NCBI GenBank assembly: GCA_033439265.1
Contig: JAVTVX010000017.1
Location: forward strand, 715,001 to 779,000
Origin: Dillenia suffruticosa
Taxonomy: Eukaryota > Streptophyta > Magnoliopsida > Dilleniales > Dilleniaceae
Length of the DNA: 64,000 bases
Reading direction: 5' to 3'
The position numbers and the translations under genes were made by a program. Each line of letters begins with the position of its first letter. Position 1 is the first letter of the stretch. Shown in pieces: positions 31,611 through 63,133 of the stretch. The notes beneath the pieces are model-generated. The model saw nothing but the letters and a program-made list of their open reading frames with translations. It did not search any database and had not been told where the DNA came from.

Positions 31611-31617
31611 GTACTTG

Positions 31618-37560: not shown

Positions 37561-37562
37561 TC

Positions 37563-37570: not shown

Positions 37571-37630
37571 AAGCTCCTTTTTCCCACTCACTTCTTCGTC
37601 AACCAACGAAAACCAAACAAACTCATCACC

Positions 37631-40419: not shown

Positions 40420-40452
40420 CTAGGAGGTGTACACCGCGCGATGCGCGGTGTA
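40420..40452 (-). terminator. Helitron 3' terminus: hairpin plus CTAG
   Basis: TACACCGCGC (40430-40439) and GCGCGGTGTA (40443-40452) form perfect 10-bp arms around a 3-base loop. On the minus strand this is followed by six bases (CACCTC) and CTAG (40423-40420), then a flanking T. This is the plant Helitron 3' signature, where the hairpin ends rolling-circle transfer and CTRR is the last element base. Confidence 0.93.
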
Positions 40453-43094
40453 GTGCTTTGATTTTGGCTACAAATCGAGGGGAGTTGCCCGGTGTGGTTT
40501 AGTAAAAATTGTATTAATTTCAGTTTTGATTTTGGCTGCAAATTGAGGGGCTAAGTTTTATAAAACTTATGAATGGCAACCAAGCAACATCATACGATGT
40601 TAGTTTTGTACATTCAATCAAAATTTGTTGATTATTTTTAACATTCAATCAAAATAAAAAATATTATAAAAGATTGAATTGAATATTACATTACCTTGGT
40701 AGTTTTGTACTTGGCAGAATTATGTTAGTACCTGTGGGGAACAATGAGTTGGTTCTGTATTTTGTATTTTTGAAATATTAATTTTTGTAATATCATTAGA
40801 TGAAAGGAAAATATTTTTATAGATTCACTAAGAGTTTTATGTAATATTAAAAATCTGGCTATTGTAAAATTTTGTTATATATAAATTTTAGCATTAATAT
40901 TTAATGTTGTACGAATGAGGATTGGTAAATATTAATATTTAGATATTTAATATCTGAATATCAATTTAAATGGTTGTATAAAACGTAAAGAATGTTAAAC
41001 GATAAATCAAAACAAATTGATAAATACTTCTGTGTAATTTAAAACTGTATAAGAATAAAAATTTTTTTATATTTAGTTTTAATATCTGGATATTTATTTA
41101 GCATTAAATATATTATATTAAAATGAGAAAAAAGATTGTATAATTTTATATCTATATATTTAAATATAACGCGTGCTGCGTAGGAAAAGTCGAAAATTTT
41201 ACTATGTAGCACAAGTAGATAGTTCTGTTAAACAGCAGAACCATGATGTTCTGTTATAGTTCTGCTAGATAGCAGAACTATGAAGTTCCGCCAGCAGAAC
41301 TATGAAGTTCCGCTAGAGAGGAGAAGTATGAAGTTCCGCTAGCAGAACTACATAAATTGCTGGTAGTTCTGTGAAATTTAATTTCTGTTTTTTTTTAATC
41401 TGAACATATTTGTAAAATAGGTGTTTGTAAGTATTTAAAAAAATATAATTTTTCTTATTTATCAGAGTAAATGGAAATATTTGTATATATGCATTAAAGA
41501 TTTGTCATAATATTATAATAAAAATATGAATCCTTACTAAACTTGAAATTGATCGAACACCGTATAAAATATATAGGGAACTAAATAAATACGGGAAAAA
41601 TGTATTTGTGGAATGTTATGTTGAGAGCATATAATGGTTTTTGGGCAGCTGTATTCTATTGTTTTTTTGTTGTAAGGCGTGATTGTGAGATCGGCAGAAG
41701 TTGGGTGTGGGGGGCTGCAAGTATAACCATTGTTTGTGTGATTGGTGGAATTGTGGTGGTTCAGTAGTGCGGAGAAGCGGCGGCGGATCCTGTTGTGGTT
41801 GTGCGGTTGGTAGAATCGTGTTGTGGTTCAGTAGTGGGGAGAAGTGGTGGTGGATCCTGTTAAGGGAAGCACCAGATGTTTGTGGTGCCAGTTGTGGTTT
41901 TTTAAAATGGTAGTTTTTTTTTGTGATATTTTGTAGGGTACATTTTATTTAAATCTGAAATAGTTATTTAATGTTAACCATGTCAAATGAAGTGGAAAAA
42001 AATAGTTGGATAATATTAATATTCGTGTAACAATGGAATTATATCAATAAGAATAATGTGTAAGGGAAATATTTGATAAAGTTAATTTTAGAAGATATAA
42101 TATGTAAAAGTTGAATGTTGTATGAAAAAAAAAAAAAAAAAAAAAAGAGGAGGTGTTGTTGATAGGATGGCATGTATGTAAATGTAAGAACGAGGGTTTA
42201 GGAGAATAGGGTATGTCAGTCGTAATAAATGCTCGGATAAGAGTGAGAAAGAGAGTTACGCAAAAGGCGTGATTTTTTAGAAGTCTTGATATCTTTTGGG
42301 ATACGTCTTTTGGCTTTCTTCCTCTTGGTGTCTTTTCTGTTTGCTTGCTTTGTTTTGTTTGTATCCTTTTGGTATTTCTTTATAGTATTTTTTTCAGAGC
42401 GTATTCTTTTGTTTGCTGGTTTTGTTTTTTTGTTCACAGGGTATTTCTCGTTTTGGCGATCTGCTCTGTTTGTTTAATTTGTTGTTTATCCAGAGGAAAG
42501 CACAGTGGAAAGAACAGATATTTTGAAGATAACGGTTGCGAAAACAAGTTCGAAGTAAGTATCGTTAGGTTTATGCGGTATATAGAGTGTTATTGTTTGG
42601 GTGTCTTTGTTATAGAGTCAACTATTTGGGAAAAACAATCAGGGATTTTCAAGAATGGATAAATGGATGCGGAAATGTATTAAATACGCTAAGTTAATCT
42701 ATTGCTATTTGTTTTGTTGTTCTGTTCTGTTTGTTGCATATAGTGAATTTTTGGGTTGTAAAAAGCAGATTGGAAGACAATAGCATAAACGCAGAAAGTA
42801 TGTAACGGGGGAGGAATGTGGGTTTGATGGGAATTTTTTGTCATTTTTTTGTATTTTTTCTTTTGGTTTATTTTGCGATAGACAAAAAAAAAGCTTATGA
42901 AGAAAGACTACAGTATGGTGTGAGGCAAGTATTGTGATCCGAGTTGTTTTTTATGGGATCAATGTTTTAGTATTTTCATGATGGGTGTTGGTACCGCTGA
43001 CCATGTTGTTTGTTTTGATTTTAGATATTGTATAGAAAAGTAAAAAAGTTTAGGTTTAGTTTCAGGGATACAAGGAGTTAATTGCTGCGGCAGA
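40453..43094. other. Helitron 3' subterminal region; no gene recognised
   Basis: AT-rich DNA containing two near-copies of 'ttttgattttggctac/gcaaat.gaggg' (about 40457 and 40530), the palindromic GTTCTG motifs at 41205-41360, a poly-A run (42125-42147), and a T-rich stretch (42290-42480) that may include 5' UTR and an intron of the following plus-strand gene. Confidence 0.55.
41205..41360. repeat. Palindromic GTTCTGCTA / TAGCAGAAC motifs
   Basis: A small cluster of the same core as the big minisatellites, but in both orientations. The clearest is AGTTCTGCTAGATAGCAGAACT at 41258-41279, with 10-bp arms and a 2-base loop. Further degenerate copies (cagcagaaccatg, tagcagaactatgaagttccg) run to about 41360. 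Confidence 0.8.
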
Positions 43095-45147
43095 ATGGCA
43101 AAAGCAGGGAGCATCAGTGAGATCAAGAGCATAATGACGCGCAAAGAATTGGAAAAGACAGCGAAAGAAATGGGTTTAGGTTCTGATTTTCGTTTGAGGT
43201 TGCCGACAGGGGATGAAAGAGCGAATCGAGTAGGAGACAGATCCGTGCCCATGTATAAGGAGTATGTAAGATACGGTGTACGGGTGCCGTATCTAGGTCC
43301 ATTGTCGGTTGTCCTAAAAGGTTGGAATATATTTCCAACTTTGTTGATTCCCAGTGCGTGGAGGTTGATAGTAGCTGTTGTCAGTTTGGTAAGTTTCTGT
43401 CGGTTGAAGTTTGATTTTGAAATTTTGCTCTCTGTTTTCGTTCTAAGAAAGTGTGCAACGGGAGGTGCGAATGAGGATTGGTACTGCGTTCAACCACGTA
43501 AAGAGTCGAACTGGAAGTTTTATTATAGGGAGACTCTTGATAGATCGTGGAAGAGAAAGTTTTTCTTTGTGGAGTTTCAAAACGAAAGTTTGCTGCCTTT
43601 TATACCGTCAGAAGGTGAACCTTTCACATCGGCTTGCAACCCATTAACTGGTGTTTCTGTGCATGGGGATTTTGTGAAATCAGTTGGTAGATATTGTGTT
43701 GGGAAGGGAAGTTCTATTTGGGTGGATACACTCATCCACGATGAGATGTTAATGTTTGCTGGTCTTTTGTTAAATGAGAAAGTGAAGATCGAAAGGGGAA
43801 TTTTGGTAGAGAAAAGAGCAATTGAAGTTGTGGACACTCTAAGGTTTGCACAAGTTGATGACCTGGAGAGAGTGATGACGATAAAAGAAATAAAAAATAT
43901 GATTCAAAAAAAGTTTGAGGGGGAAGTAAGTCAGTCCGATGAGCATACACCAGAAGAGGGTCATTATAGAAGGAAAAGAAAGCTTGTCTGTAGATCTGGG
44001 AGTGAGGAAAGGGATGACAGTGAGGAGGTGAGAAAAGAAAGGGAAGAGAGCGGGGCTGTTGGTACTGTTGGTGAGAACTTGAAGGATTTGGTCATTGTTT
44101 GTGATGAAGAGAATGATTGTCAGAGGAAGGCAGATCTGGGAAAAGAATGTGTTGCAGGGCGCATGGAATTGCTGGGAGAAAAAGAAACAGAGTCAGCAAA
44201 CAATGTGTTAATTGCTTACGGTGGCTCGAGCAGTGTTGCTGCGCCTATGGATAGGTCCAGAGATGCGAAAGAGAAGGGAGTTGCTATCGGTGTCCATCAT
44301 CCAGAGTTCTGCCATTTGGATTTGGAAGAAGGGAGAAAGTTTGGGGATGGAATTGGTTTTAGTGACAAGGAAAGTTTATTGAACCAGTTATCCTTGGAAG
44401 AAGGAGATGATGCTGTCATGAATTTTTTGCTTCAGGTAGTTTTTCCATAGATGTTATGATTTTTGGGAAATATAACGTATCATATATTTGGTATTAAATA
44501 TACAATGTGTCAAATCAGAATTTTTTTACTTGCGTGTGTATATTTTTTTGAATTAGGCTGCCACATTTGTTAAATTTCAAAGACTGCGAAAGAGAAGAAT
44601 AATAAATGAGATGCATGGGAAGTTGGAGGAGAATTCTGATCTGACTGCTGCTGCTGCTGAAAGGATAGAAGAGCTGACCACAATGTTAAAAAAGAAGGAA
44701 GGAATGTTGGAAACATTGAAGGCCGATCTTCAATCATCTTATGAAATCAGCAATGCAGCTATATCAGAATGTGAGAAGTTGGATTCTATACTGAGAAAGA
44801 CTGAGGGTGAGTGGCGAGCTGCTTTAAAATTAGCAGAGGAGAGAGGCGATGCTCTGAAGGTTTCGGAGAAAAGGGTCTTAGAAATTCAGCAAGAATACGA
44901 GAGGAGAAATGAAGAACTCATGGAGAAACTGAGAAAAACCGAAGAAATTGTCCGGAGAGCTGGACTGGAGGAACCATTTTTGGGGGCCAAGGAAAACGAG
45001 AGTTCATCTGGATTGCAGGTTAAAGGTTTTGGTGGTTTTCTCGGTGAAGAAATCAAGGATGCGGGTTCTCGCGTTGCTTCTCTTCGAGAAGATTTGAATC
45101 GGTTGAAGAAAAAATCTGATGGATCAACATGTGGACAGGTTTCGTGA
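43095..45147 (+). CDS. Transposon-like plant gene with coiled-coil tail, inside the Helitron
   Basis: Exons 43095-44435 and 44557-45147 (CAG/GTAGTT donor, TTAG acceptor, phase 0) give 643 residues. Residues about 50-170 resemble the plant 'putative gypsy-type transposon' domain (PF04195-like): VRYGVRVPYLGPLSVVLKGW, then a hydrophobic RLIVAVVSLVSFCRLKFDFE, then WYCVQPRKESNWKF and WKRKFFFVEF. The middle is acidic and low in complexity. Exon 2 is a long heptad coiled coil (ERIEELTTMLKKKEGMLETL, then EWRAALKLAEERGD, then EYERRNEELMEKLRKTEEI). It runs opposite to RepHel and RPA, so it is probably a captured or passenger gene. Function is unknown; such proteins are abundant in plant repeats and often mis-annotated as host genes. 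The intact frame suggests recent capture or selection. Confidence 0.6.
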
Positions 45148-45329
45148 ATACTGTTTTGGTGGTTTATAAATTTGGGTTGTACCCTTTCATATTGATTGAC
45201 AATGGAGTATGGTTTTCGGAAACAATGATCAGGTTTTGGTTTATTATTTGGCTTCACTTTATGAGTTTTTTTTTTGATTGGTTTTGTTTTTTTTTGCTTT
45301 GAGGTATAAAGTGGTTGTGTAATCAGGCA

Positions 45330-46045
45330 ACAAGCGACATGGTTCTGCTATGTCGGGGGGGAACTACATGGTTGTGCTATGAAGGGGCGGAACCACATGG
45401 TTTTGCTATGTAGCGGGACCTACATGGTTCTGCTATGAAGGAGAACCACATGGTTGTGCTATGTAGCGGCGGAAGCACATGGTTCTGCTATTTCTTAGGA
45501 CCACATGGTTCGGCTAGAACCATATGCTTCTGCTATGTAGCGGCGGAAGCACATGGTTCTGCTATTTGACGGACCACATGGTTCGGCTAGAACCATATGC
45601 TTCTGCTATGTAGCGGAACCACATGGTTCTGCTATGCAGCGGAACCACATGGTTCTGCTATCTACATGGTTCTGCTATGTAGCGGAACGACATGGTTCTG
45701 CTATATAGCGGGACCTACATGGTTCTGCTATGTAGGGGAACCACATGGTTCTGCTGTGTAGTGGCGGAACCACATGGTTCTGCTATGTGACGGAACCACA
45801 TGGTTCCGCTAGAACCACATGGTTCTGCTATGCAGCGGAACCACATGGATCTGCTATGTAGCGGAACCACATGTAGGGGAACTACATGGTTCTGCTATGT
45901 GGTGGGACCACATGGTTCTGCTATGTGGTGGGACCACATGGTTCTGCTATGTAGGGGGACTTCATGGTCATGGTTCTGCTATGTAGCGGAACTACATGGT
46001 TCATGGTTCTGTTATGTAGTGGTTCATGGTTCTGCTATGTAGTGT
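45330..46045. repeat. Minisatellite array 1, GGTTCTGCTATG core, ~26-bp unit
   Basis: Imperfect tandem units of the type GGTTCTGCTATGTAGCGGA plus ACCACAT, with period changes (short ctacatggttctgctat units and longer tagcggcggaagcacat units). It lies between the 3' ends of the plus-strand gene (45147) and the B3 gene (46509). The 26-bp period keeps all three plus-strand frames largely open, which explains the repetitive open frame at 45800-46042. Confidence 0.92.
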
Positions 46046-46308
46046 AATAACATAAGTATTAAAATATTGTTATAACATATTGAAAATGGAAAAGAATGTA
46101 GGTGATACTTAACTCTATTTAGATTCAGACTGCATAGATCTATTTTTTTAAAAATGGGATGTGAATATGTGCATTTATCAGGAAACATATAAAGTTTAGC
46201 GGGTAAAAAAAAAGAAAAGTAAAGGCATCATGTTATGTCTTTATGTATTCGCCTTTTTAATTTTTTTTCTGCCGTTGTGAAAGTAGTAGTCGTGTTTGTG
46301 TGGGTTGT

Positions 46309-46327
46309 AGAACCACGCGGTGGTTCT
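46309..46327. repeat. Hairpin AGAACCAC-GCG-GTGGTTCT
   Basis: A perfect 8-bp-arm inverted repeat with a 3-base loop, built from the same GGTTCT core as the minisatellite but as a palindrome. It sits about 180 bp downstream of the B3 gene stop. Confidence 0.75.
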
Positions 46328-46508
46328 GTGTCTTGCTGAATGACATCATGGTCCGTAAGTACAAAATAGTATAATAAGCATTTAACTAATGACAGAGAAT
46401 ATGGAATGGATGAGATATAATGAATGCGAAGCATGAACAGTTCGACAGAGAGGGAGAAAAGTGGAAGAATGAGATATAATGATACGGAACGTGAAATGTG
46501 CCATTAGT

Positions 46509-47381
46509 TTATATTTGTGAATACACTGAGTAGGTATGATACCAAGGGAAAATTTTCTCTACTCCGTAGGGATCAAAAATGATAACACAAAAAACTGTTT
46601 CCGATTCTGGAATGAAAACAAGGATATCATTATGATTGAGGTTATGTCTCAGAACAAAAGTGCTCCAGTTCTTCTTAATATGCGTTCCTTGGATTCCAAC
46701 TTCAAGAGATTGTGTTCCAGTCTTCAAAATCAGGGATGGAGTTTTTTCACCATTAATAAAATAGTTGATGAATGGAGGTATTTCCTGATCATTTAAAAGG
46801 GAAAGAAGGAAAATGTCAATATGAAGATGGGTAGGTGATGAATTATAAAAGGAGATATGTATTACTAATTTATATGGATCGGCCGCAGAAAATGCTTGAT
46901 AAAAGCACACAGAATCCGAAATATCCTGAACACAATCAGCTTTCAGTGATGTAGAAACGACCTCTTTCAATAGGGAACAATCCTGTTGTCCTGCAGATTA
47001 ATATTAAATTAAATGATTAATATGAAGATATACATATATCTATATTTCCATATATATACATAGGGTATCATGATTACTAAAGGAAAGTTTTAAATATCTA
47101 AAACCTTGCTCTTCCAGAAAAGTGGGTAACGGAGTTGTCCACGTTAGGTAAACTTGTTTTTGGAATTCACAGAAATGGATGACATGAAAGACAAGATTTC
47201 CAGCGTGTCTAAGAAATAAGGCGTGGTGTTCTTTGATAAGATTACTATCAAGGTATTCCCTTGAGGCATCTTCATAGAGGTTGTTTGCGAGAGGAAAGAG
47301 CCAATCACGCATTCCATGCCTGAATGTTATCCTATCTTGGCTGTGCCGCTGCAATAGCGTTCGAAATTGTACAGGTAAAAC
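46509..47381 (-). CDS. Two-domain B3-like DNA-binding protein, Helitron passenger (5' exons unresolved)
   Basis: Two exons, about 47381-47078 and 46990-46509, join in frame to give about 261 residues plus stop. Exon a starts VLPVQFRTLLQRHSQDRITF, then HGMRDWLFPLA, then KEHHALFLRHAGNLVFHVIHF, a B3 layout (LP..F, G..W, F...H, FHV..F). Exon b contains a clearer B3 half: IPPFINYFINGEKTPSLILK, GTHIKKNWSTFVLRHNLN and HNDILVFIPESETVFCVIIF. B3 domains are plant-specific DNA-binding folds. An upstream exon is likely (about 47640-47490), but I could not fix the start. The gene is downstream of RepHel on the same strand, inside the Helitron's defined 3' end. Captured host gene or element-specific regulator cannot be told apart here. 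Confidence 0.68.
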
Positions 47382-48544
47382 CTGCGTTTTTTAGGTAAAG
47401 AGATTTAAAAGATGTTATCTTTCGGTTTACATAAGCCGATAAAAGATAAATGAATCATAGAAAATGTGGCAATCAAAAAGTGGATACCTGGTCTTTCCTG
47501 CAGCGGAGGAAAAAACAGCAGGATTGTAAATAAGCATCCTGTGGAGTTGAAAGCAAAGCCATTGGTTTTTTTTTCATTCAAGGAGTCACAACACACGCTT
47601 AGTTGTTTTAGTGATGATATTTTTCTTGTTCGGTCCTGAAGAAGAAAGACTGGAACAGATTATCAAGCCTAGGGAGCAGAAAGGATTAGGACGAATAACA
47701 AGAAGCTGTAAAGAAAGAATATATTATGTTCTGCAGTAACCCGTGAGCTCTCTGGCTTTTATTTTGTTTTGTAGTAACCCGTGAATAGATTCCATTGGAT
47801 TTATTTTTATTGGATTTGACCTGTCTGTGAAGAAGTTTTACCTGCCCCTATTGGAACATCCGTTTTATGTATCCGGACGGTGAAAGCGAATCCTGGCACA
47901 TTAATAATTTTGCTCAAAAAATGTTTAAACAAAAAACAATATCCAATAGGAAGTAATTAATGATTATAGAGTATTAGCAGGTAAAACTTAGAAATAATCG
48001 ATCTAATGGAATATATAACGGTGATGCTTTCTATGTGTCTTGTTCGAATAGCAGGGGTTGAGTTAAGTTTTTATTTTGTGGGAATATTAAGTTGTTTGGG
48101 TTGGGAAGGTTCCCTCATATTTAGGCCGCCCTTCTGCATGTCATTAAACTGTTGAAATGTCTAAGTGTTGGTTGTGGACCAAGAAAGTGTTGTTTCTGAA
48201 ATAAGCAAGGTAGAACAATGAAGTTGTCATATCATAGAAAGAAGAAGTAATGGTTGCTTTGTTTGGAAAAAACAGAGGTTTGTCCTGGATGAGTTCCTAT
48301 CTTGAAAGTGGGAAAAAAAAAAAAAGGTAATATCTTATGATATTTTATCCAAGTAAATATTATCGGATGGTAACAAAAGCGTAAGCGCTCTATGGGAAAA
48401 ATCTTAACTTTAAAAAATACATAATAGGTTCTTGATGGAAAAACATTAAATCAGGAAAATGGATGCCTATGAAAATAAAAAAAAGTTAGAAAAAGATATC
48501 ATAAGGTCCTGTTTTTAAAAATAGTATAAAATTCACATTCGTAC
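47382..48544. other. Spacer with possible 5' exons of the B3 gene
   Basis: Minus strand 47640-47400 has an open stretch (LKQLSVCCDSLNEKK) and a 'ctgcaggaaagaccag/gtatcc' acceptor-donor pair that may be leader exons. The rest shows nothing recognisable. Confidence 0.4.
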
Positions 48545-48672
48545 CTCTGAATTCATCAAAATGCACCTTTCATCTTTCGTTATGGTATCTATTGATGTTG
48601 GAACGTGTTGTTTTTTGTGGACCTTTGTTATCCAAGGTGAGTTTTGCGTATCAGGAGTGATATATCTTCACG
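48545..48672 (-). pseudogene. Second copy of the RPA first exon (isolated)
   Basis: The minus strand reads YITPDTQNSPWITKVHKKQH, then SIDTITKDERC, then NSE before a GT. This aligns with exon 1 of the RPA gene at 59816-59673 (DITCDTQNWTSKITVQEKQH, then SINTPTKKQK, then DSE before GT). The flanks also match in nucleotides (cacctctgaat at both donors). No further RPA exons follow on its downstream side, so it is a fragment or the first exon of a rearranged gene. The start codon region is not conserved clearly. Confidence 0.7.
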
Positions 48673-48798
48673 ATAGAACAACTGTGTATGTTGAAAAAAA
48701 TGAAGGAACAAAAATAGAAAATGTGAGGATATGATATTCACGAAAAACAACCGAATAAGAGTGAAAAAAAAAAATGATATATACCTGAATCATGAAAT

Positions 48799-51700
48799 TT
48801 ATAAATCAGCAAGAGCAAATATTTCAGTAAACACAACATTTCTTGTTTTCCGATCGAGTTTTACACCAGCAAATGTTCCAGGAACTATCAGTACCTTAAT
48901 CGCATCAGCTGATCTAGCTCTAGATAACGCAACATAGAGTTGACCATGAGAGAAAACAGGTTCTCGTATATATATTCCAACGTAATCTAATGTTTGTCCT
49001 TGAGACTTGTTGATCGTCATGGCAAAGCATAAACGAACAGGGAATTGTGTCCTTATGAAAGGAATTCCGTTTCTTTCATTGTCAGAGGTCTGGAGTGGGA
49101 TTTTAGGAATAAAAACTGTTTTTCCTGTGTACTGGCCACAAGCAATCTCAGCAGAAATAGAATACCGTCCTAATTCCTTGCATATCAGTCTGGTTCCATT
49201 GCAGAGGCCTTCTGTTGGATTCAAATTTCTGAGCAGCATAACAGGACAGTTTTTTTTAAGTGATAATCTAAAAGGTGGTAGGCCTCTCGGATTTTGGCTG
49301 TTTAAAAAGTCTTCATAATCTCCCTGGTGGCGTTCGTCAACAGTCCTATCCGATGCTATGTAGGTGTGCAGATCTCCAGGAAATCTTTCAATTATAAGTT
49401 CGTTAAGTTCATGAACAGAAGAATTCTTGGGAGCAAGAATGCATCTATTGATCATCTCAGAAGGATCATCTGAATAGAGTGCCATGTCATGGAAAACATA
49501 ATGTATCAATCTGTTGCAAACGAAAACAGATAGGTTGATAATAGAAAACATTATCAGTAATATCATATTGTGTCATTGGTTGTCAGTGTAGATAAGAACG
49601 GATTACCTGTCTAAAGACTCATTTCTATCAGTATATGGTATCACAATATTAGAAGGAAGTGTGATGTCCCCGTTTACGTCGGTTGGTTCTTTCCCTTCAC
49701 CGATTCTCAGTAAGAAATCACAGAACTGTGGATCTGAAAGAGCCCTCATATTTTGTTTCAATGCTAATTTATAGATATCTTTCCACAAAGGTGAATTTAA
49801 AAGGCTTGAGTCAATCAGAACCTGTTTTGAAGCTTTTTCTATGACTGGCAATGTTTGCCTAAAATCTCCACCAAATACAACAACTTTTCCTCCAAAGGGC
49901 ATTTCGCAATCCATTAGATCTTTAAGCAAATCATTTAATGCCTCAATGGATTGTCTTTTTGCCATTGATGCTTCATCCCACAAGATCAGTCTTGATTGAA
50001 TAATCAGTCTAGCAACGGAACTTTGTTTGCTTAACTGACAGGTTTTGGCTTTTGAGAAATCCAAGGGTATCTTGAATCTAGAATGTGCAGTTCGACCTCC
50101 TGGAAGTATAGATGCTGCCACACCTGATGTTGCAACAGGAATTGCGACATAACCTTTAGCTCTCAAGGCAGCAAGCAGTGATCGATAGAGAAAAGTCTTT
50201 CCAGTTCCTCCGGGCCCATCTATAAAAAATGATTGACTTTCGTTAGCAAAAACAGCATCCAAAATTAGATCGAATGCATATTTTTGTTCAGGATTTAGCC
50301 TTGAAGAAAGAAGCAGATCATCAGGATCAATTTGGATGCTTGCTTCAGTGTCAGCTTCTGTTGTGAGTTGTTGTTGATAGTGAAATTCATTGGGATCGTT
50401 TTCTATTTGATAATCAGCTAAACTTTTCCCCATTGAGTAGAGTAGTCTATTCAAGTCAAATAGGACCTTGTGATTTACTTCGTAGGAATTAAGCTGTCCC
50501 AGTTTCACAGCATGGTCATAATCAGCAGAAAGATCACTTTTAAATTTCTCCCATAGAGACGGTGGGTCTGCAGGCGAACAATAACATAAAACAGTAGCAA
50601 ACAGCAACCTAAAAGACGATGGCATCTGAAAGAGGACAGCCTCAGAGAGAGTTTCTTCAATATATTGATCATATCTTAATAGTCCAAGTCTTAGTGCTGC
50701 TTCTCTATAAGAATGAGTTTTTTCTCCTTGAATAGTCAACAAGTCATCAAAAGATGCAGGTGCACGAATATGAGTGAGTAAAAGTCTTAGATAATATCGT
50801 TCGCCTTCCTTCGGACTGACAGTAACCAATCTTCCTATGACCATCTGTCGTTTTCTTTCTGACCATGCCTTTATTCTAGAATTCCAAACAAAATGTTCAG
50901 GAAATTCCTTATATAGGCATTTCAATTGTCGTGCTTTTTCGTTATTTGTATTCATTCTGAAAAATTCAGTTAACATGGTTGTGGAGAAGTCGACATTTCT
51001 CAGCAGATAGGTCAAATTAGATCCATTGTTGAATGAGACAAGCTGGTGATCCGGAAGATGAACCTGCAGAGTATAAACTGCTGGGGTCATTTCATTGAGT
51101 CGGAATTCATAAATTCGCCATAAAGCCTCAGGAGGAGAAATCCACCTTGCTTGCTGAAATTGTTTTATCTCATCAATATCATCAAGAAATCCTTCATCAA
51201 CAATTTGAAAACTCACCAGGTCATGCCCTTTAAAAACATATTTGTAGAGATACTTTACAAGTTTCACAGTAGAACATATCTCAACATTTATATGACAATT
51301 CAACAAGGCAAGTAGATATGGATTATAAGGCACAACCCATCGATTGTCTAAATCATAACCTCGAACTCTAATCATTTTTCCATTATTTCTCCTTCTGTAA
51401 TACGGATATGTATCTTCTCCATGAACGGTGTAATCAGAGAAATTCTTAGGATAATGATTTTTGCATATACCACTTCTCATGCAGGGACAATGCTTATTCA
51501 TATTGCCACACGGACCATGAATCATGTGCTTAACAACAAGGGAATACAAGTAACCATTTTCTTGAGGTATTTCAGCACACACAATTTTATCATATGATTG
51601 TGGATTAAGTAATTTAGACTGCGGCTTCAATATTAGCAACAAGTGAGCGTGAGGGAATCCACGTTTTTGAAACTCGATAACATAAACACATGCTGCAACT

Positions 51701-53958
51701 TCTCCAAAGACTTGCTTTTTTAGAAGTTCATTTTTCAATATCTCAAATCTGGCTCTAAAAATACGAACCAACAGATCTGGCCTATCCTGTGGCTTTTCCT
51801 GATATTTCAAATTGTCCTGAATTTCCTTCCACATAGGATTACATGTCATCGTCAAGAAAATGTCTGGTTTTCCATATTTTTGAACCAAAGCCATAGCATC
51901 TAAATATCGTCGTCTCATATCTCGCGGGCCACCAATAAAAGAAGCAGGCAGTATTATCCTGCGACCAACCTGACGACCCTGTGTCTGACCAAGTGATATA
52001 CTGTCTAAGACTCCTTGTAGAATCTCTGTTCTGATTTCTTTTTGTTTGTTTCTGTAAAATTCAAGTCTGGATGTTTCTATTTTAATGTAGGTACCTACGA
52101 CAAACTGTTGCAGCAGTCTAAGAGTATGTAATAACATAGAGTTGTCGTTATTTCTTATCTGAAGTCTGTAGCAGTAGTATTCTCTTGCTGAAACAGCATG
52201 CTGTCCATATTTGTTTTTCTGAACGACTAAAAAAAAAAAAAACAAATAAGGGGAAAATATCCCTGCTATAAGAATGGGAAGAGTAAGACAAAGATTAAAG
52301 CACCCACCTGTTTCTTCCAAGTTTATTAAATCGGTTGGATGTTCGATTGAGAAAGGATCGATGTTACAATCAGGGAGATCCGTGCATCTTCGTTTTTTAT
52401 ATAACCTCTTAATGCCATGATGCCATCCAGATTCCCCTCTAGGAAACAAAAGAGGATACTGCAAAGGATCATAGCATGCGTAATACGGTTGGACTCGGTA
52501 GCTCGAGTTGGAATGACTGTAAACCTGGATGTGAGGGAGTGAATTAACAGGTTCATCTGTTTCGGTCCAAATGGCAGCAACCTCGGAAGCAGTGGGAAGA
52601 TTATAGACACGTTGATCCAATGTTGGATAACAGTTTAGGATAATTTTATAATCCTGTAGATCATGAAGATATCTCAAGTCCCTGAAAAATCTTGCATAAG
52701 GATTGTGGGAAAGAACGTCGAGAAGGAACCGCAAAATGTTTGGTCTCAATTTGTCAGAGTTTTTAGTTCTCGTCCTTACAGCTTCATCTGTATCATAAAA
52801 ATAGAGTTGAATTCCACATGCTTTGTCCCCTGATGGCACCAAACTGTCCAGCATATGATAAACTTGTCCCTGTACGCGGAAAGTATAGACTCCATGCCTG
52901 TTTTTTGTAAGCTCCTTATCATATTTTGCGGCATACGATGTAAAAGCCAGATTATTATTATACGTACGGATATTTTTACGAAAGTGTTCACATTGTTCAT
53001 CATGCCCAACAATCAGGTGCTTAAGAGAATAAGGCATTGTTGGCTCTACTATAGATATCTCTCCTGTACGACAGCAAAACGATGGGGGTTCCAAATAAAA
53101 TCGTTTAGCGGCACAAAATTCACACTCCGGAGCATCAGGAAGTATAAAGGTTTCCTGCGGGATATTCTCCAATAGAGAGTAGTTTGTCTTCTTCACTCGA
53201 CGACCTACAATTCCTTTTAAATTCAAGGATTGTGTTAGGCTTAAATCATAGAGGCAGGAAATTAAGGAGAAAATGTGCATAGCCGAACAATAACGAAAGC
53301 AGTCTATATAGGATTCAAATCGTAGAGGCATGAATGTGAGGTAGTATATGTTTGATATGGATAACCATCAGAAGACACAAAAAGCCTTTTCTGAAAGCTG
53401 TAAAAATGAGGGAGGGGGAAATCAGTTAGATGCATAGACATTTGTTTTTTCTATTTTGGAAAGCAGCGAGGAGTAAATTTCAACTACATACACAATTTTG
53501 TGAGCACTAAATACGAAGAAGAAAAGTAAGTATAAGCGATGATAAAACGGTTTAATTTATCGGATAGTATTTGAAAGGTTTAAAATTAAGAGGACAAAGT
53601 AGAAAACAGAAAGCTGAAGATATTTGAAAGACTTGCCCGTTGGAGTAGAAGACGATGGAGCTGTTGGATCCAAGTGAGGCGCTGGAGCAAAAGAAGTTTG
53701 GTCATTTTGATCAATGGAGATGGCATGACTAACTGGTTCAATAGAGTTGTCACCGTGTACACCATCAACGGTGTAACCTGTATCCTCAGTATTAAGAAAA
53801 TCGTTTGTATTTTTCTGAATGCGAAAGTCATTATTATTATCTCTGTTTCGTCTTGCAGCATAGGCCTCTCGACGACGGCGTAAAAGTTCATCTTTTTTAT
53901 GTTGCGCCATTTGCGCATATCGCCTACGTCGTTCTGCATTTTTATCGATTCTATCCAT
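48799..53958 (-). CDS. Helitron RepHel: HUH replication initiator plus PIF1-type helicase
   Basis: The transposase of the element: the Rep part nicks and joins DNA for rolling-circle transposition and the helicase unwinds it. Model: exons 53958-53637, 53213-52308, 52226-49607, 49510-48799, giving 1519 codons with no stop. Intron 1 uses a GC donor (CGG/GCAAGT); intron 2 is 81 bp and in frame; intron 3 is 96 bp (CAG/GTAATC). The N-terminus is basic (NAERRRRYAQMAQHKKDELL). Then come the cysteine cluster ECEFCAAKRFYLEPPSFCC, the Helitron-like N domain, the HUH motif GFPHAHLLLIL (about 51664-51632), the tyrosine motif KYLYKYVFKGHD (about 51257-51222), Walker A GPGGTGKTF (about 50218-50192), Walker B ILWDEAS, GGDFRQTLPV, and a C-terminal TINKSQGQT / LYVALSRAR. 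Length and order match plant RepHel. It looks functional. Confidence 0.93.
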
Positions 53959-55290
53959 GTTTCTATGGGATCAGGAAAAAAAATAGCAAAGTATGAAAAT
54001 GAAAGAGGGTAATAACAAAGTGTAGAGTTAGAGTTAGAAGAACCGTAAAGTATAAAATCAAGAATAGAATCAGAACAATAGGAAAAAGGAAAAATGTCAT
54101 AGAGAAATGTCAGACAACACACGGTGTTTCTAGAGGTGCATATCACTGTTGATATGTTGAGCACAAGAATTTCAAAGTATACAATCATATTGTAAAATCT
54201 GTAGGAGTAAAGTTACCTGGTTGCAGAAAACAATGCTAAGTAGAATCGGGACGGTGGATATCGAACCGTATAGCACACGGAAAAAAGCTAACAGGAAATA
54301 GAGAGCACAAACACTGCAAAACACATAAACAGAAGAAAAGAACATAAAAGGAGAAAGAATCGAAGGGAAGAAATTAGCTAGGTATCAACAGAAAAAGCAT
54401 CATACATATAACAAACGAAACAGGGAAAAAGAAAGAAATGGGGTTGCAAGGATTAGCAGGAAGGAAAAAGCACCTGTCAAAAAAAGAAGACAGTAAGAAG
54501 GAAGAAGGTGATGAACGTTTAAAAAAAAAAAAGAGAGGAAGTGTATCTTGAAAAAAAAAGAGAACTCAGACTAAATGCTGAGTAATGTAAGATTTTTTTT
54601 TTTTTTGCGGTACAGCAACATGATGACAATTTAATTAATCTCGTATTAGTTCGAGACGTGTAAAGAAAGATGTTTACTTCTAGGAGAAAAGCAATTTGTT
54701 AAAACATAATGGTTATTGCGAAAATTTGTTTTTTCCCAATTTGTTTTTGTGGTTATGTCCACAGAATGGACTTTGACGTCTCGAATGCATAGTGCTGATT
54801 GCGTGTTTAGCATAGAAATGATAAGACATACATGGTTATTACAACACGCAAGAACAGAAACACGATTTATATATATTGATATCTGAGACGATTGATTTAT
54901 CGGTGGATTTATTTATTATTAAGAAAGAAAAAAAGAAACACTGAAACACACACGATACATAGCTATGATTGTTAGTTATATCTTTGCGAACGGTTCGAAA
55001 CAACAAGATAGCATAACACCGTGGGTTGGTGATAACACCCAACAACAATCAGTGCTGTTGATTTTTTGTGTGGATAGATATTTTTTTATTGTGATTGTAA
55101 ATGTCTGAAAAATAATCTAAACCTGCCGTGCTAAGCAGAGTCGTCTACCTGTGCAATTCAGCAGAGGTAAACCGTTTTCGTGTCGAGCTTGTGCTACACG
55201 GGAGAACATATAGTTTTGCTAAACAAAAGAATACATAGTCTACCTAAATAGGAGAAGCACGGAGTTCTGGTGGATATAAAAAAAAACGTT
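53959..55290. other. Helitron spacer upstream of RepHel
   Basis: Minus-strand upstream region of RepHel, A-rich on the plus strand with several A-runs (54520-54600). It presumably holds the RepHel promoter; a specific TATA was not fixed. Degenerate GTTCTG-type motifs begin at about 55140-55270 and lead into the array. Confidence 0.5.
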
Positions 55291-55294
55291 CGGT

Positions 55295-56710
55295 TTTGTT
55301 ATGGTGGTGCTATGCAGCGGGACCACATGGTTCTGCTATGTAGTGGGCCTCATGGTTCTGCTAAGCAGCGGGACCACATGGTTCTGCTATGCAGCGGGCC
55401 TCATGGTTCTGCTACGCAGCGGGACCACATGGTTCTGCTACGCAGCGGGCCTCGGGACCACATGGTTCTGCTATGCAGCGGCACCACATGGTTCTGCTAT
55501 GTAGCGGCACCACATGGTTCTGCTATGCAGCGGCACCACATGGTTCTGCTATGTAGCCGGACCACATGGTTCTGCTAAGCAGCGGGACCACATGGTTCTG
55601 CTATGCAGCGGCACCACATGGTTCTGCTATGCAGTCGGACCACATGGTTCTGCTATGCAGCGGGACCACATGGTTCTGCTATATAGCGGGACCACATGGA
55701 TCTGCTATGTAGCCGGACCACATGGTTCATGGTTCTGCAGCGGGACCACATGGTTCTGTGTAGCGGGCCTCATGGTTCTGCTATGCAGCGGGACCACATG
55801 GTTCTGCTATGCAGCGGGCCTCATGGTTCTGCTATGCAGCGGGACCACATGGTTCTGCTATGCAGCGGGCCTCATGGTTCTGCTATGCAGCGGGACCACA
55901 TGGTTCTGCTATGTAGCGGGACCACATGGTTCTGCTATATAGCGGGACCACATGGATCTGCTATGTAGCCGGACCACATGGTTCATGGTTCTGCAGCGGG
56001 ACCACATGGTTCTGTGTAGCGGGCCTCATGGTTCTGCTATGCAGCGGGACCACATGGTTCTGCTATGCAGCGGGCCTCATGGTTCTGCTATGCAGCGGGA
56101 CCACATGGTTCTGCTATGTAGCCGGACCACATGGTTGATGGTTCTGCAGCGGGACCACATGGTTCTGCTATGTAGCGGGCGCACATGGTTCCGCTATGTT
56201 GCGGGAGCAAACGGTTCATGGTTCATGGTTCCGCTATGTAGCGGGACGGTTCATGGTTCCGCTATGTAGCGGGACCACATGGTCCCGCTATGTAGCGGGA
56301 CCACATGGTTCCGCTATGTAGCCGGGCCACATGGTTCCGCTATGTAGCGGGAGCACACGGTTCATGGTTCTGCTATGTAGGGGGACCACATGGTTCTGCT
56401 ATGTAGGGGCAGCACATGGTTCATGGTTCTGCTATGTAGCGGGAGCACAGGGTTTATGGTTCTGCTATGTAGCGGGACCACATGGTTCTGCTATGTAGCG
56501 GCACCACATGGTTCATGGTTCTGCTATGTAGCGGGACCACATCGGTCTGCTATTTAGCGGAGCCACATGGTTCTGCTATGTAGCGGTGGTTCCGCTATGT
56601 GGCGGAACCACATGGTTCATGGTTCAGCTATCTAGCGGCGGAACTATATGGTTTTGATATGTAGCGGCAGAACCACATGGTTCTGCTATGCACCGGTACT
56701 ATATGGTTCT
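55295..56710. repeat. Minisatellite array 2, GGTTCTGCTATG core, 25-26-bp units
   Basis: About 1.4 kb of tandem units, mostly GGTTCTGCTATGCAGCGGG plus ACCACAT (26 bp), alternating with a 25-bp form ending CCTCAT. A higher-order repeat with a 256-bp offset is visible: the segment starting 'atatagcgggaccacatgga' at 55681 recurs at 55937. The right part (56160-56640) is more degenerate (ggttccgctatg, ggttcatggttc). It lies between the RepHel 5' end and the RPA 3' end. The long overlapping plus-strand frames here (periodic MVLLCSGTTWFCY-type peptides) are repeat translations and not genes. Confidence 0.95.
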
Positions 56711-57018
56711 GACTTTAATTTATTTATTTATTGTTTCCGCTTGAAAACATCTTCTTTTCCGAAAGGGGTGATCAAATTAAGCGACGTGACAATATTAACC
56801 ACGAGAAAACATATTTATGTAAATAACAACGACAAGCGTTCAGTGATAAGTATAATATCTGTCGACACAGCCTTGAGAAACCAAAAAAAGATTGTTTTTA
56901 ATATGTACACAAGCAGTGGCATTGTTGTATGGACACAACAAAAAGACAAAAAGAAAGTTAATTTGGTGGTTCTTCACGGACTACCACAACAAAAGCATCT
57001 TATCACACTGAGTTCAGA

Positions 57019-59816
57019 TCAGTTTTTTTTTTTCTTAGGAAGGTTTACATGTATGGGTTCCGGAAGTTCCCCGCTTTGTAGCGTATCATGTTCCACATCT
57101 TCAAACTTACGAAGCAGCGAAGCTTTGGCTCTGGACGAAGAAGCCGTCGTTTCTGAAATCAACAAAGCAGAACGGTGAAGTTATCACATTATAAATAGAA
57201 TAAGAAGGAAGAATCACAATGCTGGAAAATAATACAGAAGGCGCACCTGGTTGGCATCGAGTTAAAGTAACCAAAGACGAAGAAGAAGGGCCAATGGTAG
57301 ATTGTTCAGAAAGGGAGGGTGTACATGGTTTAGATCCACTTAAAGCAACGAAAGAGGAAGGAGAAAGACCAACGTTGGATTGTTCAGAAAGGGAGGGCGC
57401 ACCACCTGGTTCATATCCTGTTCAAGTAACGAAAGATCTGGTTAAAGTAACAAAAGATGAAGAAGAAGGGTGAAGGGTTGATTATCGAGAAAGGAATAGA
57501 CCATCAGGGTTATATTCAGATGCATCACAATAATATATGACCGTGAACCGCTGTTTTATATCCATTGATTCAGAGCGAACAGGTCTGATGTGCGCAACAA
57601 ATGTTTTTTCTTTGAGTGCTTGGTGGACATCATTGAGCAAGAGTTCAGTGTTCTTGTAAAAAAAACCGGGAAAAATATTAGTATAGCAAATTCGAAAGGG
57701 AACGCGTATGATATACATTTAGTGGTCAGATGAAGAACAAAGAGTCTGAGTAAACTAATATCCGAAACAAATCATGGAGGAATCACATAAATAGAACCTT
57801 GATAAAATGTTCCATTGCTTGAACAGCTGTGAAGCTCAGTAATTTTTCAGCTAACTCTCCAAATACAGATGCAGTTATGTTGCCAGTGTCATCTTGTAAA
57901 TCAACATTAAACCGACATCTATAAAGCACAAAGTATAAACACACAGCAAGAAGATTAGACAACGAAGCAGAGACATTGCAATATGGCTGGAAAAGTCCGA
58001 CTAATAATTCGGGACAACACAAACCATAACATAAATCTGATTAAACGGTGTCAAAAGATACCTTGGTTTGGCCGTTCCTCTTTGGTTGCACGAATTGCAC
58101 AAGAAATCAACATCAAGTGAAGCTGACGTGGAGTGGAAACAATTGCTACAGGCCATGTACCAATATTTTTGGAAAATGTGTTCGAAGGAGAGCTGCACCT
58201 TTACCCATGCTGTCTGAAATGACCTCATAGATGACATAAGCAAAATCCGATGGGTACGAAGAAGCATTTATACGGAAAATCCTTCTGTTTTTTTTTTGTT
58301 GGAAGAAATGACTTACCCTCTGTGCTGCTGTTAGGTTACATATGCTGGTTATTTTTTCAGTTGCTGTGAAAGAGATATCAGGGTTGTAGTAATCGTACTT
58401 TTTATGTCGAATTATATCCTGAAGCAATCCGTCATTTCTCAGAGCCCTAAAAAAGGAATAATTCAGTAATATATAATATCCAATGGCTATATAGGTTGAA
58501 GTCCAAATAACTTTACAAAAAAATCACAATCATTGAATAGTTTATATTCATAACAATTACCAGTTTTTTAGCTGTCGTGCTTCTTGAATTGGAGGATCAA
58601 CAAGGATAGCCGAGTCAAACCAAGTAGAGAGCGCCACACCTTGTAAAAATAAATCTAACAGATAAAATCCGCGGGTATAGGGAAAAAGAAACGAAAAGAT
58701 AAAGGGAGGATGGATTTTTTGTTAATACCGTTGTAAGAATTAACTTTGAGTCTTCTCCCAACAATAACAGGATACGTACGGAGGTTCTGCAAGATCTGTT
58801 CTCCTTCATTGCGGACGAAGTCATCCCAAAAAGATAACTTAAGGCTCTGAAAACTGTTTTTTTGAAAAGATATATCGGTTAAGGTCGCATTACTATTTTG
58901 TTACAGATGGAAAAGACTAAGGGGCCTTACTCTTCATTCACAATCACAAATTTTTGAACAACACAATTCCTTTCTTGTCTAGTGATGTTTGTTGGATCCA
59001 ACGCAGAAATGACAACGGCCAAAATATCTGGATGAAAAGGTAACAAGAAAAGAAGAAAAAGAATAAATATCCCAGTAAAAAGCAAAACATATATAAGCCG
59101 CAAAAATAAATGCGTAGGAAAAAGCAAGATGGATCCACAAGTAAACATACCTACAGATTTGTCTCTCCGATCCATATACTGTGCCAAATCTGTAAACGGT
59201 GCATAACTAAACCTTACAGGCATTACATCATCTTCATTCTTTAATTCCTCTACAAGTGTTCTCGTAGAAATAACCCATTGAGTCTTGATATTGGAGTTCT
59301 GAAACTTTGGAGGGATCGGTCTTACGGCAGCATTTGATACAAGATAAGTTTTATAGATCTGCAACATGGGGCTCATTCTAGGGATGTCTGCATTAAACAT
59401 TATTCCTTCTACTTGAGTACCCTATGCCAACAGAGAGATAAGCACCAGGTTATACATCCTTATATTATTTTCGAGCTAAATTTTTTTTTTTTTATAGCCA
59501 CGATGTTCAAAACGCTGCATGCAAAAAATTATAATTAAGTTGTAAAAATGCGGAATAAGCTCTTGCATCCCAAAAAATAATACGATGGAGATCCATAGTC
59601 GTGCAACCAAAAGATTGAAACATATACGATAAGTTTTTTATTTCAAACAGACCCTAATATAAAAATCCATACCTCTGAATCCACGAAGATGTATTTCTGC
59701 TTTTTCGTTGGGGTATTAATTGATGTTGTAACATGTTGCTTTTCTTGGACCGTGATCTTAGAGGTCCAGTTTTGGGTATCACAAGTGATATCTTTTATAA
59801 GAGAATAATTCGCCAT
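57019..59816 (-). CDS. Helitron RPA70-like single-strand DNA-binding protein
   Basis: A replication protein A large-subunit homologue, typical of plant Helitrons and thought to coat single-stranded transposition intermediates. Start at 59816 (MANYSLIKDITCDTQNWTSK). Exon 1 59816-59673; exon 2 59421-59151 (SPMLQIYKTYLVSNAAVRPI); exon 3 59027-58931 (DILAVVISALDP); exon 4 about 58853-58733 (LKLSFWDDFVRNEGEQIL); exon 5 about 58641-58562; exon 6 about 58447-58314 (DYYNPDISFTATEKITSICN); then a zinc-binding exon about 58215-58062 (WYMACSNCFHSTS and CNSCNQRG, C-x2-C pairs), the third OB fold (about 57920-57795, FNVDLQDDTGNITASVFGE), and an exon about 57660-57490. A Ser/Pro-rich tandem-repeat linker follows. 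The last exon reads SSRAKASLLRKFEDVEHD and ends in PKKKKN at 57019. Exons 1-4 join in frame; the 3' junctions are less certain. Confidence 0.85.
57235..57475 (-). repeat. Three ~78-bp tandem repeats in the RPA 3' region
   Basis: Units share 'gattgttcagaaagggaggg' and 'aaagtaac(c/g)aaaga(c/t)gaagaagaaggg' type sequence. On the minus strand they encode a Ser/Pro-rich linker (PSLSEQSNVGLSPSSFVALS and variants). The plus-strand frame at 57219-57473 is the acidic reading of the same repeats. A minus-strand TGA near 57430 means this part is either entered by splicing (an ACAG acceptor is present) or not translated. Confidence 0.6.
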
Positions 59817-61499
59817 TCTTTAAAAAACAAATAGCAACGGCAACAAAACAGGGCACGGGAAAAAGATCCTGGGAAAAAGCACCATATAAGATTGGAATTA
59901 TGAACATATGTACCTGAAGGAACAATGAATACGCGAGAATTTATGGAGACTGAGCACGATAAATAAAAACAATATTTTTTGTTTTACCGCGCGAGCTCAG
60001 ATCATAAAACGTTTACATGTACAATCCAGAAAATAGCACAACATTTAAGATGCCTCGCAAAAAAATTTCTCCACACAATTTGTTTGGAGTCCCACACCAA
60101 TTCCATCATCACAAACTTAACGTTAGGGGGTCACAGCAATATAAGTTATTGTAAACCCCAAGCATACAGCCATACAAGAATCGGGATGTCACAGCCATAA
60201 GGGGAGAAGAGAAAAGAGAACGGCGAGTAGAAAGCACAAAGAGTAGAAACGCATCAAGGAAACAAAGCAAATTAATTAGCCGAATTATTATAAACGCGAA
60301 AAGAAAAAAAAAACCATCGTGGTAGAGATAAACAAGGGAAAAACAGCAACCTGGTCGAAAGAGAAGAGAAGGTCCACAAATCTTCATGACAAAGAAGCAA
60401 TCGATCCACATAGATATACACCAACAAAGTCACGTCCGTACGAAAGCGAGAACGTGCACTTCATGCACCATAATCATAACAATCAGAAAAAAGCATAACT
60501 CCCATCACCTCAATCCGCCTAAAAAAAAAAAATTTCTGGGCAAAAGAAATATAATAAGGAAAACTTGTTTCATTTGCTCATATATTAATTTGTTTTTTTA
60601 TAATTTTTTTATGTGCTATATTATATTTAATTAATAACAGAGAAGAGAAGAGGGACCCATTTTTGCGACGGGGAATTACATGCTCAGGATCAAACGTTAT
60701 AACACGTGCGTGTTCAGGACAAGAGGTGACAACACAGACAGCATATACCCCCAACATGATTTTTTTTATTTAAATTTACCAGAGAAGACGTATCTGTGTC
60801 TCGAACATCTACTCTCTATTGCGTGTTCACAAGAAGAAAGATCGCAACATATTCGTGGTTAGAAAAAGAGGGCACAACAGACACACCATATTATTGTCAG
60901 TAACATCCAGATTTCTACTGCGAACGAAAGAACAAAACACTGAACCATTGCGCGTTCACGAGGACGCTATAGAACACACACAAACAATACAGGAACATTT
61001 ATATCACTATTTATGTTAGCAGAATCAATTATTCAAATACACGTGAAACACAAGACCACCCAACCACTCTTTGATAGCGACCACTCCTAGAGAAATAAAT
61101 GAAAGAACTGCTACACAAACGTGGAATGGCAGAATCTCATACCAAAATCTCTGACGTGTCCAACAGTGTATCACGAGTTGAGGACGAAAGGTTACGACAC
61201 ATACGTAGTAAGCGCAAAAGGTGACAACAGAAACACAAAAGATAGAGAACAATCTTTTGTTTTGTTTTTTTGTTTTTTTTTAAGTTAACAGAGAAGAGGA
61301 ATCGGTGTCTTCAATATACGGTCTCCATCGGGTGTTCACGAGAAGAAAGGTTGCAAAATAGCAACAGTAAACCGTCTTGACATGAATATTCGCTCACGCC
61401 AAATCTCCGTTTTTCTCGACATGAATATTCCTGTCTCGGGACCTCGCGGGAAAAATTGTTTAACCGTTACCATAGAGCAGGACGGAAAAGTTCGGGCAA
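59817..61499. other. Upstream region of the Helitron RPA gene
   Basis: No gene recognised. Three related modules share '(c/a)cagagaaga(g/c)g' preceded by an AT-rich stretch: about 60640, 60778 and 61281. The last two are followed by 'tgtgtct/ggtgtct', 'tctcyat.gcgtgttca / ggtgttca' and 'cgagaagaaaggttgc'. On the minus strand each reads CTTCTCTG followed by AT-rich sequence, which resembles a Helitron 5' end, but none has the required A before TC. Confidence 0.45.
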
Positions 61500-61668
61500 G
61501 TAGCAGAACCGTCTTGTTCTGCTTCACGAGGTTAGTTCAGCAGCCTCGCAGAACCACACAGTTCTGGCGCACAGCGGAACCACAGTTCTGCTATGCACCA
61601 AGTCACATGTTTCTGTTCTGCGCAGAACAACGCGGTTCTGCTCAGCATGCTCAGACGCACAGCAAAAC
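61500..61668. repeat. Degenerate GTTCTG/CAGAAC cluster near the Helitron 5' side
   Basis: Repeated motifs gcagaaccgtcttgttctgc, cgcacagcggaaccacag, gttctgctatgc, gcagaacaacgcggttctgct. The core is shared with arrays 1 and 2 and with 41205-41360, in both orientations here. This is the best sign that the element continues to at least this point. Confidence 0.65.
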
Positions 61669-62056
61669 CACACAGACCTGTTACACACGGAAAACTCATA
61701 TTCGTACAAGGCCACGCTTCTAGCGCTCTGTCCATGGAGGCCAAATACTCCACGCAGATCGCACAGTTCCTTCGGAAGAAGCAAAACAATAAAGATCGTC
61801 AGAGCATAAAATTTGCCGTTTTCATTTCTTGCCTTCATTGAACAATTCATCCGCGAGACAATGTTTTGGCCACAAGGTTTTTAACACACAAAATACCCGA
61901 AAACCAACAACGGAAAGACCACATCTCTGAAACCAGGACACAATATTAAACCCTAACACAAAAAGCAACTGCAAGAGCACGCAACACCGCAAGATCCCGG
62001 ATATGACAATGGCCTGGAGAACCACCCATTGAGCCGGTGAAGTGCAGAGGTACAAA

Positions 62057-62985
62057 CCTGTTGATTCCATGAGGATTGCTTCTGATAGCTGGTTAACTTA
62101 CATCGATCGAGTCGCATTGTTCCCTAGCCCACGCGAAAAGGCACAGCCAACCAATGCAACATAACCAGCGATCAGAACAATCCCCATAGAACCAACACGT
62201 GTGCAGCTCTCCACTCCTCCGGGTCCATGCGGTTCTCCATTCACAGTCCGCCCAACACCTGCACAATGGCTGCAGAACCAAACCTACACCTTGCCAGCCC
62301 TGCACCAAATCCATGCGCCATCCCTCACCGTGGACGTCCAGTAGCTCTGCAAACACCCCATAAGCAGCAACGTACCCTCCCTGCGGAGACACCTACAAGA
62401 AGCAGCAAAAAAAAGCCCAATCAAAATAAGCCAAACATCCCAAAAGAGGACATCAAACATCCCAAAACTGGGAAAACAAATACAAACCCTCAACACAGAA
62501 AGAACATAGCAACAGTAAACCTGTTAATCCCATGAGGATTGCTTCTCATAGCTGGTTAACTTACGTCGATCGAATCCCAATGTTCCTTAGCCCACGCGAA
62601 AAGCACAGCCAATCAATGCGACTTAACCAGCCATCAGAACAATCCCCAACGAATCAACACGTGTGCAGCTCTCCACACCTCCGGGTCCAGGCGATTCTCC
62701 ATTCATAGTCCGCCCAACACCTGCACAATGGCTGTAGAAACAAGCCTGCACCTTGACACCCTGCACCAAATCCATGCGCGGTCCGTCACTCTGGACGTCC
62801 AGTAGCTCTGCAAACATCCCATAGGCAGCAAGGTACCCTCCTTGCCGAGGCACCTACAAGAAGTAGCTAAACGAAGCCCAATCAAAATAAACCAAACATC
62901 CCAAAAGAGAGGAGAAAACATCCCAAAACAGGGAAAATAAACACAAACCCTGAACACAAAGCAAAATAGCAACAGTAAACCCGAC
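62057..62985. repeat. Two-copy tandem duplication, 463-bp unit
   Basis: Copies at about 62057-62519 and 62520-62985 share the 'atgaggattgcttct.atagctggttaactta' start and the 'ccaaacatcccaaaagag' end, with many transitions between them. Both minus-strand copies have an open stretch starting GGYVAAYGVFAELLDV or GGYLAAYGMFAELLDV, but the frames diverge later, so coding is doubtful. The region is more GC-rich than the rest of the window. Confidence 0.85.
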
Positions 62986-63133
62986 CGTGCATGATCAGCA
63001 ACATAGAAAAGCGGATCCCCTAAAGATTGGGAAAAAGGGTCGGAGCTGAACGTCTACATCCCTACCCCCCAGAGAGAGAAACCTCTATACCGAAAGCAAG
63101 AGCAAACCATCACAACAGACAAGTATAACCTCC

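Follow-up and report, generated by a model that had tools for sequence, protein, structure and literature searches.

Helitrons move by an established rolling-circle mechanism, in which a RepHel protein nicks one strand and unwinds it, that strand is coated by RPA and insertion takes place between A and T. In plants most Helitron copies are described as broken or non-coding (PMC4683698). The wheat element Feng8, which moves itself and Xuan1, is the only plant case we found with experimentally shown new insertions (PMC13286980); the portions of that report used here mention no B3 or OrfX gene, and the term RPA is absent from its main text. A second point of reference is the VANC21/VANDAL21 system of Arabidopsis, in which a protein encoded by the element binds a short, arrayed, non-coding motif and removes the family's methylation (PMC5735166). 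Large size alone is not new in a Helitron, as maize elements reach 39 kb (PMC6431247).

Here we describe an element in Dillenia suffruticosa that lies largely within a window of 64,000 nucleotides, the whole stretch analysed (C17:715001-779000); the copy it contains is called the C17 copy, or W. We consider it very probable that this is a 30.7-kb plant Helitron, recently amplified and apparently autonomous, in which a B3-domain gene and a further gene, OrfX, are kept by selection, with arrays of a short motif as their proposed target. At the level of sequence, its four-gene composition and its recent spread are demonstrated. We assign it to the Helitrons on its RepHel gene, its 3′ hairpin followed by CTAG, its 5′ TC, its insertion between A and T and its RPA70-type gene of the plant kind.

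Results

Extent and ends of the element

The 3′ terminus occupies 40420..40452 on the minus strand, where a hairpin with 10-bp arms and a 3-nt loop (40452-40430) is followed by six bases, by CTAG (40423-40420) and by a host T at 40419, just as an earlier note on this DNA had described; its DNA fold, at -12.3 kcal/mol (z -6.3), was equalled by none of 200 shuffled sequences. From here the body of the element fills the window on the minus strand (40420..64000) and runs on to window-equivalent position 71140 (C17:786140), where the minus strand reads host A / TCAACAATATAG. This 5′ end, which the earlier note had expected to the right, was placed where the C17 and C12 copies diverge, other copies also aligning beyond the right edge of the window, and the element therefore measures 30,721 bp; its C12 sister measures 32,602 bp. 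The earlier estimate of at least 19 kb thus becomes 30.7 kb with both ends located, and 59816 is not the limit of the element.

At 61360..61388 the C17 copy has a private deletion in non-coding DNA, with a 1,879-bp segment gone and a 27-bp filler in its place. The segment is present in whole or in part in 16 of the 17 other right-arm stretches, the remaining one (L022) having no alignment to the right arm. A search of 40000-64000 against Rfam gave no match. In its left part the window has matches to DUF7796 and BPS1 genes, along with a fragment of a reverse transcriptase (31555-34209, 37310-38533, 345-764); the DUF7796 and BPS1 matches, like B3 and F-box-type LRR matches in this genome, are what a plant would be expected to show.

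The RepHel and RPA genes

RepHel is encoded on the minus strand in four exons (53958-53637, 53213-52308, 52226-49607 and 49510-48799), the first intron being GC-AG. The stop-free model of 1519 codons proposed earlier was reproduced exactly, but its N-terminus is provisional, because several splice choices, GT-AG ones included, likewise stay open (1529 and 1525 codons, for example; 1472-1549 codons among 20 listed). The key motifs also held up: Pfam profiles identify Helitron_like_N (2e-57), PIF1 (9e-69) and Pif1_2B (2e-15), the helicase being of the SF1 class, and the HUH and two-tyrosine motifs can be seen by eye in the translation. In the core exon dN/dS is 0.18 between W and L035 (p 1e-21), 0.24 between W and L036 and 0.23 between W and copy D, and in the N-terminal exon it is 0.38 (W vs L035) and 0.48 (W vs L036). 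The core exons of the comparison copies contain stops (two in L035, five in L036, two in D), and for the L035-L036 pair the values are 0.50 (core exon) and 1.90 (C-terminal exon). The Rep frames of 896 or 897 aa in other copies are not read as broken: in the two such copies examined, L002 and L003, an intronic poly-T is one T shorter.

The RPA70-like gene (57482..59816, minus strand) turned out to have nine exons that join in frame, from 59816 to 57482, where the first four had been joined before, and encodes 429 aa. It matches RPA70 (4gnx, E 8e-18) across the DNA-binding domains, and REPA_OB_2 and Rep_fac-A_C are above the Pfam cut-off; by eye, two more open C-terminal exons are possible, to about 57020. 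Between RepHel and the B3 exon there is also a decayed second RPA copy (about 48070-48250 and 48406-48683, minus strand), mapped from L035, which consists of the first exon and the 3′ part and is about 70% alike.

OrfX

OrfX lies near the 3′ end of the element on the strand opposite to RepHel (plus strand, exons 43095-44435 and 44557-45147; 643 codons) and has no known domain; Pfam at E<=10 returned three matches, the best at E 0.74 and all far under the cut-off. A suspected resemblance to Transposase_28 (PF04195) was not supported, there being no match to that profile at E<=10. Weak coiled-coil-type matches in the second exon suggest that the C-terminus may be coiled-coil-like. An AlphaFold model of exon 1 had a mean pLDDT of 28 and was discarded.

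Of five copies, W and L031 keep the frame open; in D, L032 and L033 it is damaged. Across 20 pair comparisons dN/dS ranges from 0.30 to 0.62 in exon 1 and from 0.27 to 0.52 in exon 2, with Fisher p values of 2e-5 for W-L031 and 4e-10 for L031-L032. Genome-wide, with 94 of 1,658 candidates scored, there are at least 102 matches, which merge to 89 places. These were compared, as were those of the B3 exon, with 125 Rep places merged from 149 matches listed (150 of 192 candidates scored). A Rep match lies within 30 kb in the same convergent layout at 61 of the 89 OrfX places, against a random mean of 0.38, and the other three layouts occur 0, 3 and 0 times. The standard layout holds for 16/16 places at >=98% identity, 17/20 at 85-98%, 25/31 at 60-85% and 3/22 below 60%, so that at 60% identity or more it is found in 58 of 67. 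Nineteen of the 22 places below 60% have no Rep nearby among the matches listed (C26:12937307, C10:34440643 and C18:14364898, for example), and these relatives possibly belong to a second element family.

The B3-domain exon

On the RepHel strand, a constrained exon of 162 codons plus stop (46509..46997, minus strand; start exon provisional) resembles the B3 domain. PF02362 matches it at E 6e-4 to 7e-4, with 19.9 bits and thus under the cut-off of 30.1. The exon also matches the host stretch C37:8215745-8216059 (30% identity, E 1.6e-8), which is one of three neighbouring B3 matches and is itself hit by PF02362 above the cut-off (E 4e-11); we infer B3 homology because the profile and the exon both match this stretch. 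The exon gave no match to solved structures, and an AlphaFold model with a mean pLDDT of 38 was discarded. The VANC domain is named DUF1985 in Pfam, and it is absent from the Pfam matches of both OrfX and the B3 exon, which contain no VANC-like domain.

Between W and L035 the B3 protein is 96% identical, while the DNA at 47391-48500 is 90% identical, and dN/dS is 0.15 (Fisher p 9e-5); for W and L036 it is 0.27 (p 0.007) and for pairs without W 0.24-0.70. The comparison of W with D gives 1.0 on nine changes, with part of the exon lost in the alignment, and 0.66 in another alignment. A candidate first exon at 47052-47378 was set aside, as it has no clear constraint (0.81 for W-L035, Fisher p 0.79; 0.57 for W-L036).

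Across the genome the exon has 132 matches, merged to 102 places with the weak matches at C13:11792778, C24:9221339, C11:4721364 and C11:4718400 left out. It lies 3′ of Rep on the same strand in 74 of the 102, most often at a distance near 5.1 kb, and the other layouts number 0, 2 and 0. By falling identity class this layout is seen in 17/18, 25/25, 24/32 and 8/27 places, and near Rep in 66 of the 75 places at 60% identity or more. Six matches at 59-61% identity (C29:24622444, C29:18192066, C35:1686651, C10:34125553, C15:23058053 and C20:9613529) cover residues 25-127 and each carry one TGA and one TAA; they are perhaps another repeat family that acquired the exon.

GCAGAAC arrays

Within the element there are 125 occurrences of the motif GCAGAAC/GTTCTGC, 86 in one orientation and 39 in the other; the 46.3 kb examined outside it contain a single one. 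There are tandem arrays at 45342..46035 (17 copies) and at 55330..56686 (38 copies, with a unit of about 26 bp), and clusters at 41235..41348 (five copies) and 61503..61641 (seven copies), with further clusters to window-equivalent 69920. Clusters span 41.2-69.9 kb, with single sites only in the gene block at 46.0-55.3 kb; of the 125, three fall within the portion counted as coding (8,288 bp), and the remaining 22,433 bp hold 122. Even without the two big arrays GCAGAAC is the commonest complex 7-mer, at 67 in 20.2 kb.

Other copies share this enrichment. In the 10 kb adjoining the 3′ end, L031-L033 (about 90% alike) contain 22, 21 and 16 motifs and L034 (86% alike) contains 71, where about 1.2 are expected; in the gene-less 14.5-kb copy L037, a stretch of 3.5 kb yielded 37. 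For L035 and L036, which are gene-rich stretches, the counts are two and none against an expectation of 0.8-0.9, as predicted if the motif favours non-coding DNA. A 17-base array unit matches the genome exactly 1,415 times, gene-less relatives of 14 kb included, and its reversed control not once; of 100 places listed among the 1,415, 89 are inside or beside known copies of the family and 11 are unassigned. A 22-mer of the array unit folds to a 9-bp hairpin, and the array segment differs between sister copies.

Copies, junctions and age

The earlier note had proposed looking for other copies with the same 3′ end. In the 596 Mb genome searched there are at least 41 matches to it (40 of 233 candidates scored), and 40 of 346 candidates were scored for the 5′ end; end pairs were drawn from the scored matches to both, and their counts are lower bounds. 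At least 13 copies with a Rep match pair the two ends, at lengths of 26.7-38.7 kb, which speaks against the 3′ terminus being that of a different, shorter element. The Rep domain lies 11.0-11.3 kb from the 3′ end in the paired copies, with the exception of C10 (about 8.5 kb). Relatives of 13.6-14.6 kb also have the same two ends, at least six such further pairs having no Rep, OrfX or B3 among the matches listed. The longest paired copy (C11:17509668-17548364) is 38.7 kb, about 6 kb above its sisters. On C31, the paired copies 13496449-13527280 and 13533614-13560349 stand in opposite orientation, about 6.3 kb separating their 3′ ends, and on C1 three Rep matches about 4.5 kb apart (14254709, 14259250 and 14263705) resemble a tandem duplication.

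All 12 of the 3′ junctions examined read CTAG|T, and host flanks differ between the copies examined at junctions. At the 5′ end, compared in L027, L028, L039, L041, L043, L045, L048, L050, L052, L054 and L056, the preceding base is A in 10 of 11 copies and G in the C5 copy. The element begins with TC in six of the 11 (the copy in the window and five of the ten others) and, by eye, with TT in five; closely related elements of both kinds have spread.

Fifteen copies were compared over 3.96 kb (about 3,960 bases). C11, C13 and C35b are identical, C17 is one base off, and the most distant pair differs by 0.8%; we take the spread to be recent because of this near-identity. Substitutions accumulate at about 7e-9 per site per year, and at this rate the youngest group of copies would date back no more than some tens of thousands of years. 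With many near-identical copies at different sites, and RepHel and RPA open, the suggestion that the element was recently active is borne out; the two additional genes and the motif arrays did not figure in the earlier note.

Discussion

The open genes, the termini and the junctions are consistent with a cycle in which RepHel would nick and unwind one strand, RPA would coat the freed strand and the element would re-insert between A and T. The B3-domain protein and OrfX are retained by selection as the element's own parts, and would most likely aid its expression or protection through the GCAGAAC arrays, including those of gene-less copies, in trans. That the two proteins act on the arrays in this way, in trans included, we put forward only tentatively. 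More specifically, by analogy with VANC/VANDAL21, B3 and/or OrfX might bind the arrays in all copies and lift the silencing of their own family only, as an independent parallel; this is a speculative proposal to which we give a rather low probability. The repeated word in non-coding DNA would then perhaps be a tag for self-recognition.

The two additional genes could instead be passengers without a role in an otherwise ordinary large Helitron that captured host genes. Captured gene pieces are frequent in plant Helitrons, which reach 39 kb in maize (PMC6431247), and B3 domains form a host family here. However, purifying selection between diverged copies and the standard layout that most places with at least 60% identity show near Rep (OrfX 58/67, B3 66/75) are hard to reconcile with such a history, and it is because of this selection and synteny that we regard it as unlikely rather than as the leading account. 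It is less likely still that the element is dead and that its open frames merely reflect its youth; the private 1.88-kb deletion of the C17 copy would fit, but it removed non-coding DNA, and sisters with the same open frames reached different sites very recently.

The arrays can be explained in other ways than as targets of a self-recognition system, and here the alternatives weigh more. They might be a by-product of rolling-circle replication, or of slippage at palindromes, and no protein would then bind them, a possibility we take seriously though we would not bet on it; the 9-bp hairpin of the 22-mer unit, the tandem units of about 26 bp and the variation of the array segment among sisters would all be expected. 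Yet GCAGAAC returns as the one core of clusters that lie apart, leads the 7-mers even when the two big arrays are taken away and is over-represented close to the 3′ end in copies that are about 90% alike. Slippage alone leaves a core common to the clusters unexplained, although transfer of sequence between clusters could account for it. It is also conceivable, if doubtful, that B3, perhaps with OrfX, is a plain activator of the element's genes and the arrays its enhancer, with no part in anti-silencing. In plant proteins the B3 domain (Pfam PF02362) serves to bind DNA, and the arrays lie between genes; against this, they also fill gene-less copies, where there is no gene to drive, which is not decisive.

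Together, the arrays and the two additional genes under constraint suggest, in a form open to testing, how a Helitron could evade silencing for the sole benefit of its own family. The family, with at least 13 two-ended, Rep-positive copies, is in addition a natural system in which to study how about 30 kb of DNA transposes by the rolling-circle route.

Comparison with known systems

Among the open-access papers surveyed, including PMC13317346 and PMC12730594, we found no plant Helitron with anti-silencing, B3 or VANC-type motif genes. On the evidence of the alignments, what is new here is that purifying selection acts on OrfX and the B3 exon and that even diverged copies have both in the same arrangement next to RepHel. 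The fungal Helitrons with a TET/JBP dioxygenase (PMC12730594) likewise carry an extra gene proposed to counter silencing, but theirs encodes an enzyme and not a sequence-specific DNA-binding protein, and they are fungal. Rice Mothra and its sister family (PMC4683698) share with our element the TC..CTAG ends, the 3′ hairpin, insertion at A|T and a many-exon RPA gene of the plant type, as well as a RepHel (in the sister family) and non-autonomous derivatives with tandem repeat blocks. Unlike them, the element described here is 30.7 kb long, has RepHel and RPA together and open, is present in near-identical copies and contains two more constrained genes. Wheat Feng8/Xuan (PMC13286980) is similar in its open RepHel (1,676 aa in Feng8), its non-autonomous partners and its AT insertion; the last intron of Feng8 also begins with GC, as the first RepHel intron does here. 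The activity of Feng8, an element both required and sufficient, was shown experimentally, whereas our element is apparently autonomous as judged by its sequence.

VANDAL21 (PMC5735166) is a MULE with a protein of another family, and its binding and loss of methylation are proven, whereas here the argument is drawn from layout and selection. Both systems nevertheless combine an extra element-encoded protein with repeats of a family-specific motif that lie mainly in non-coding DNA and vary in number between copies, so that motif arrays of this kind, a VANC-type trait, are present in a Helitron as well.
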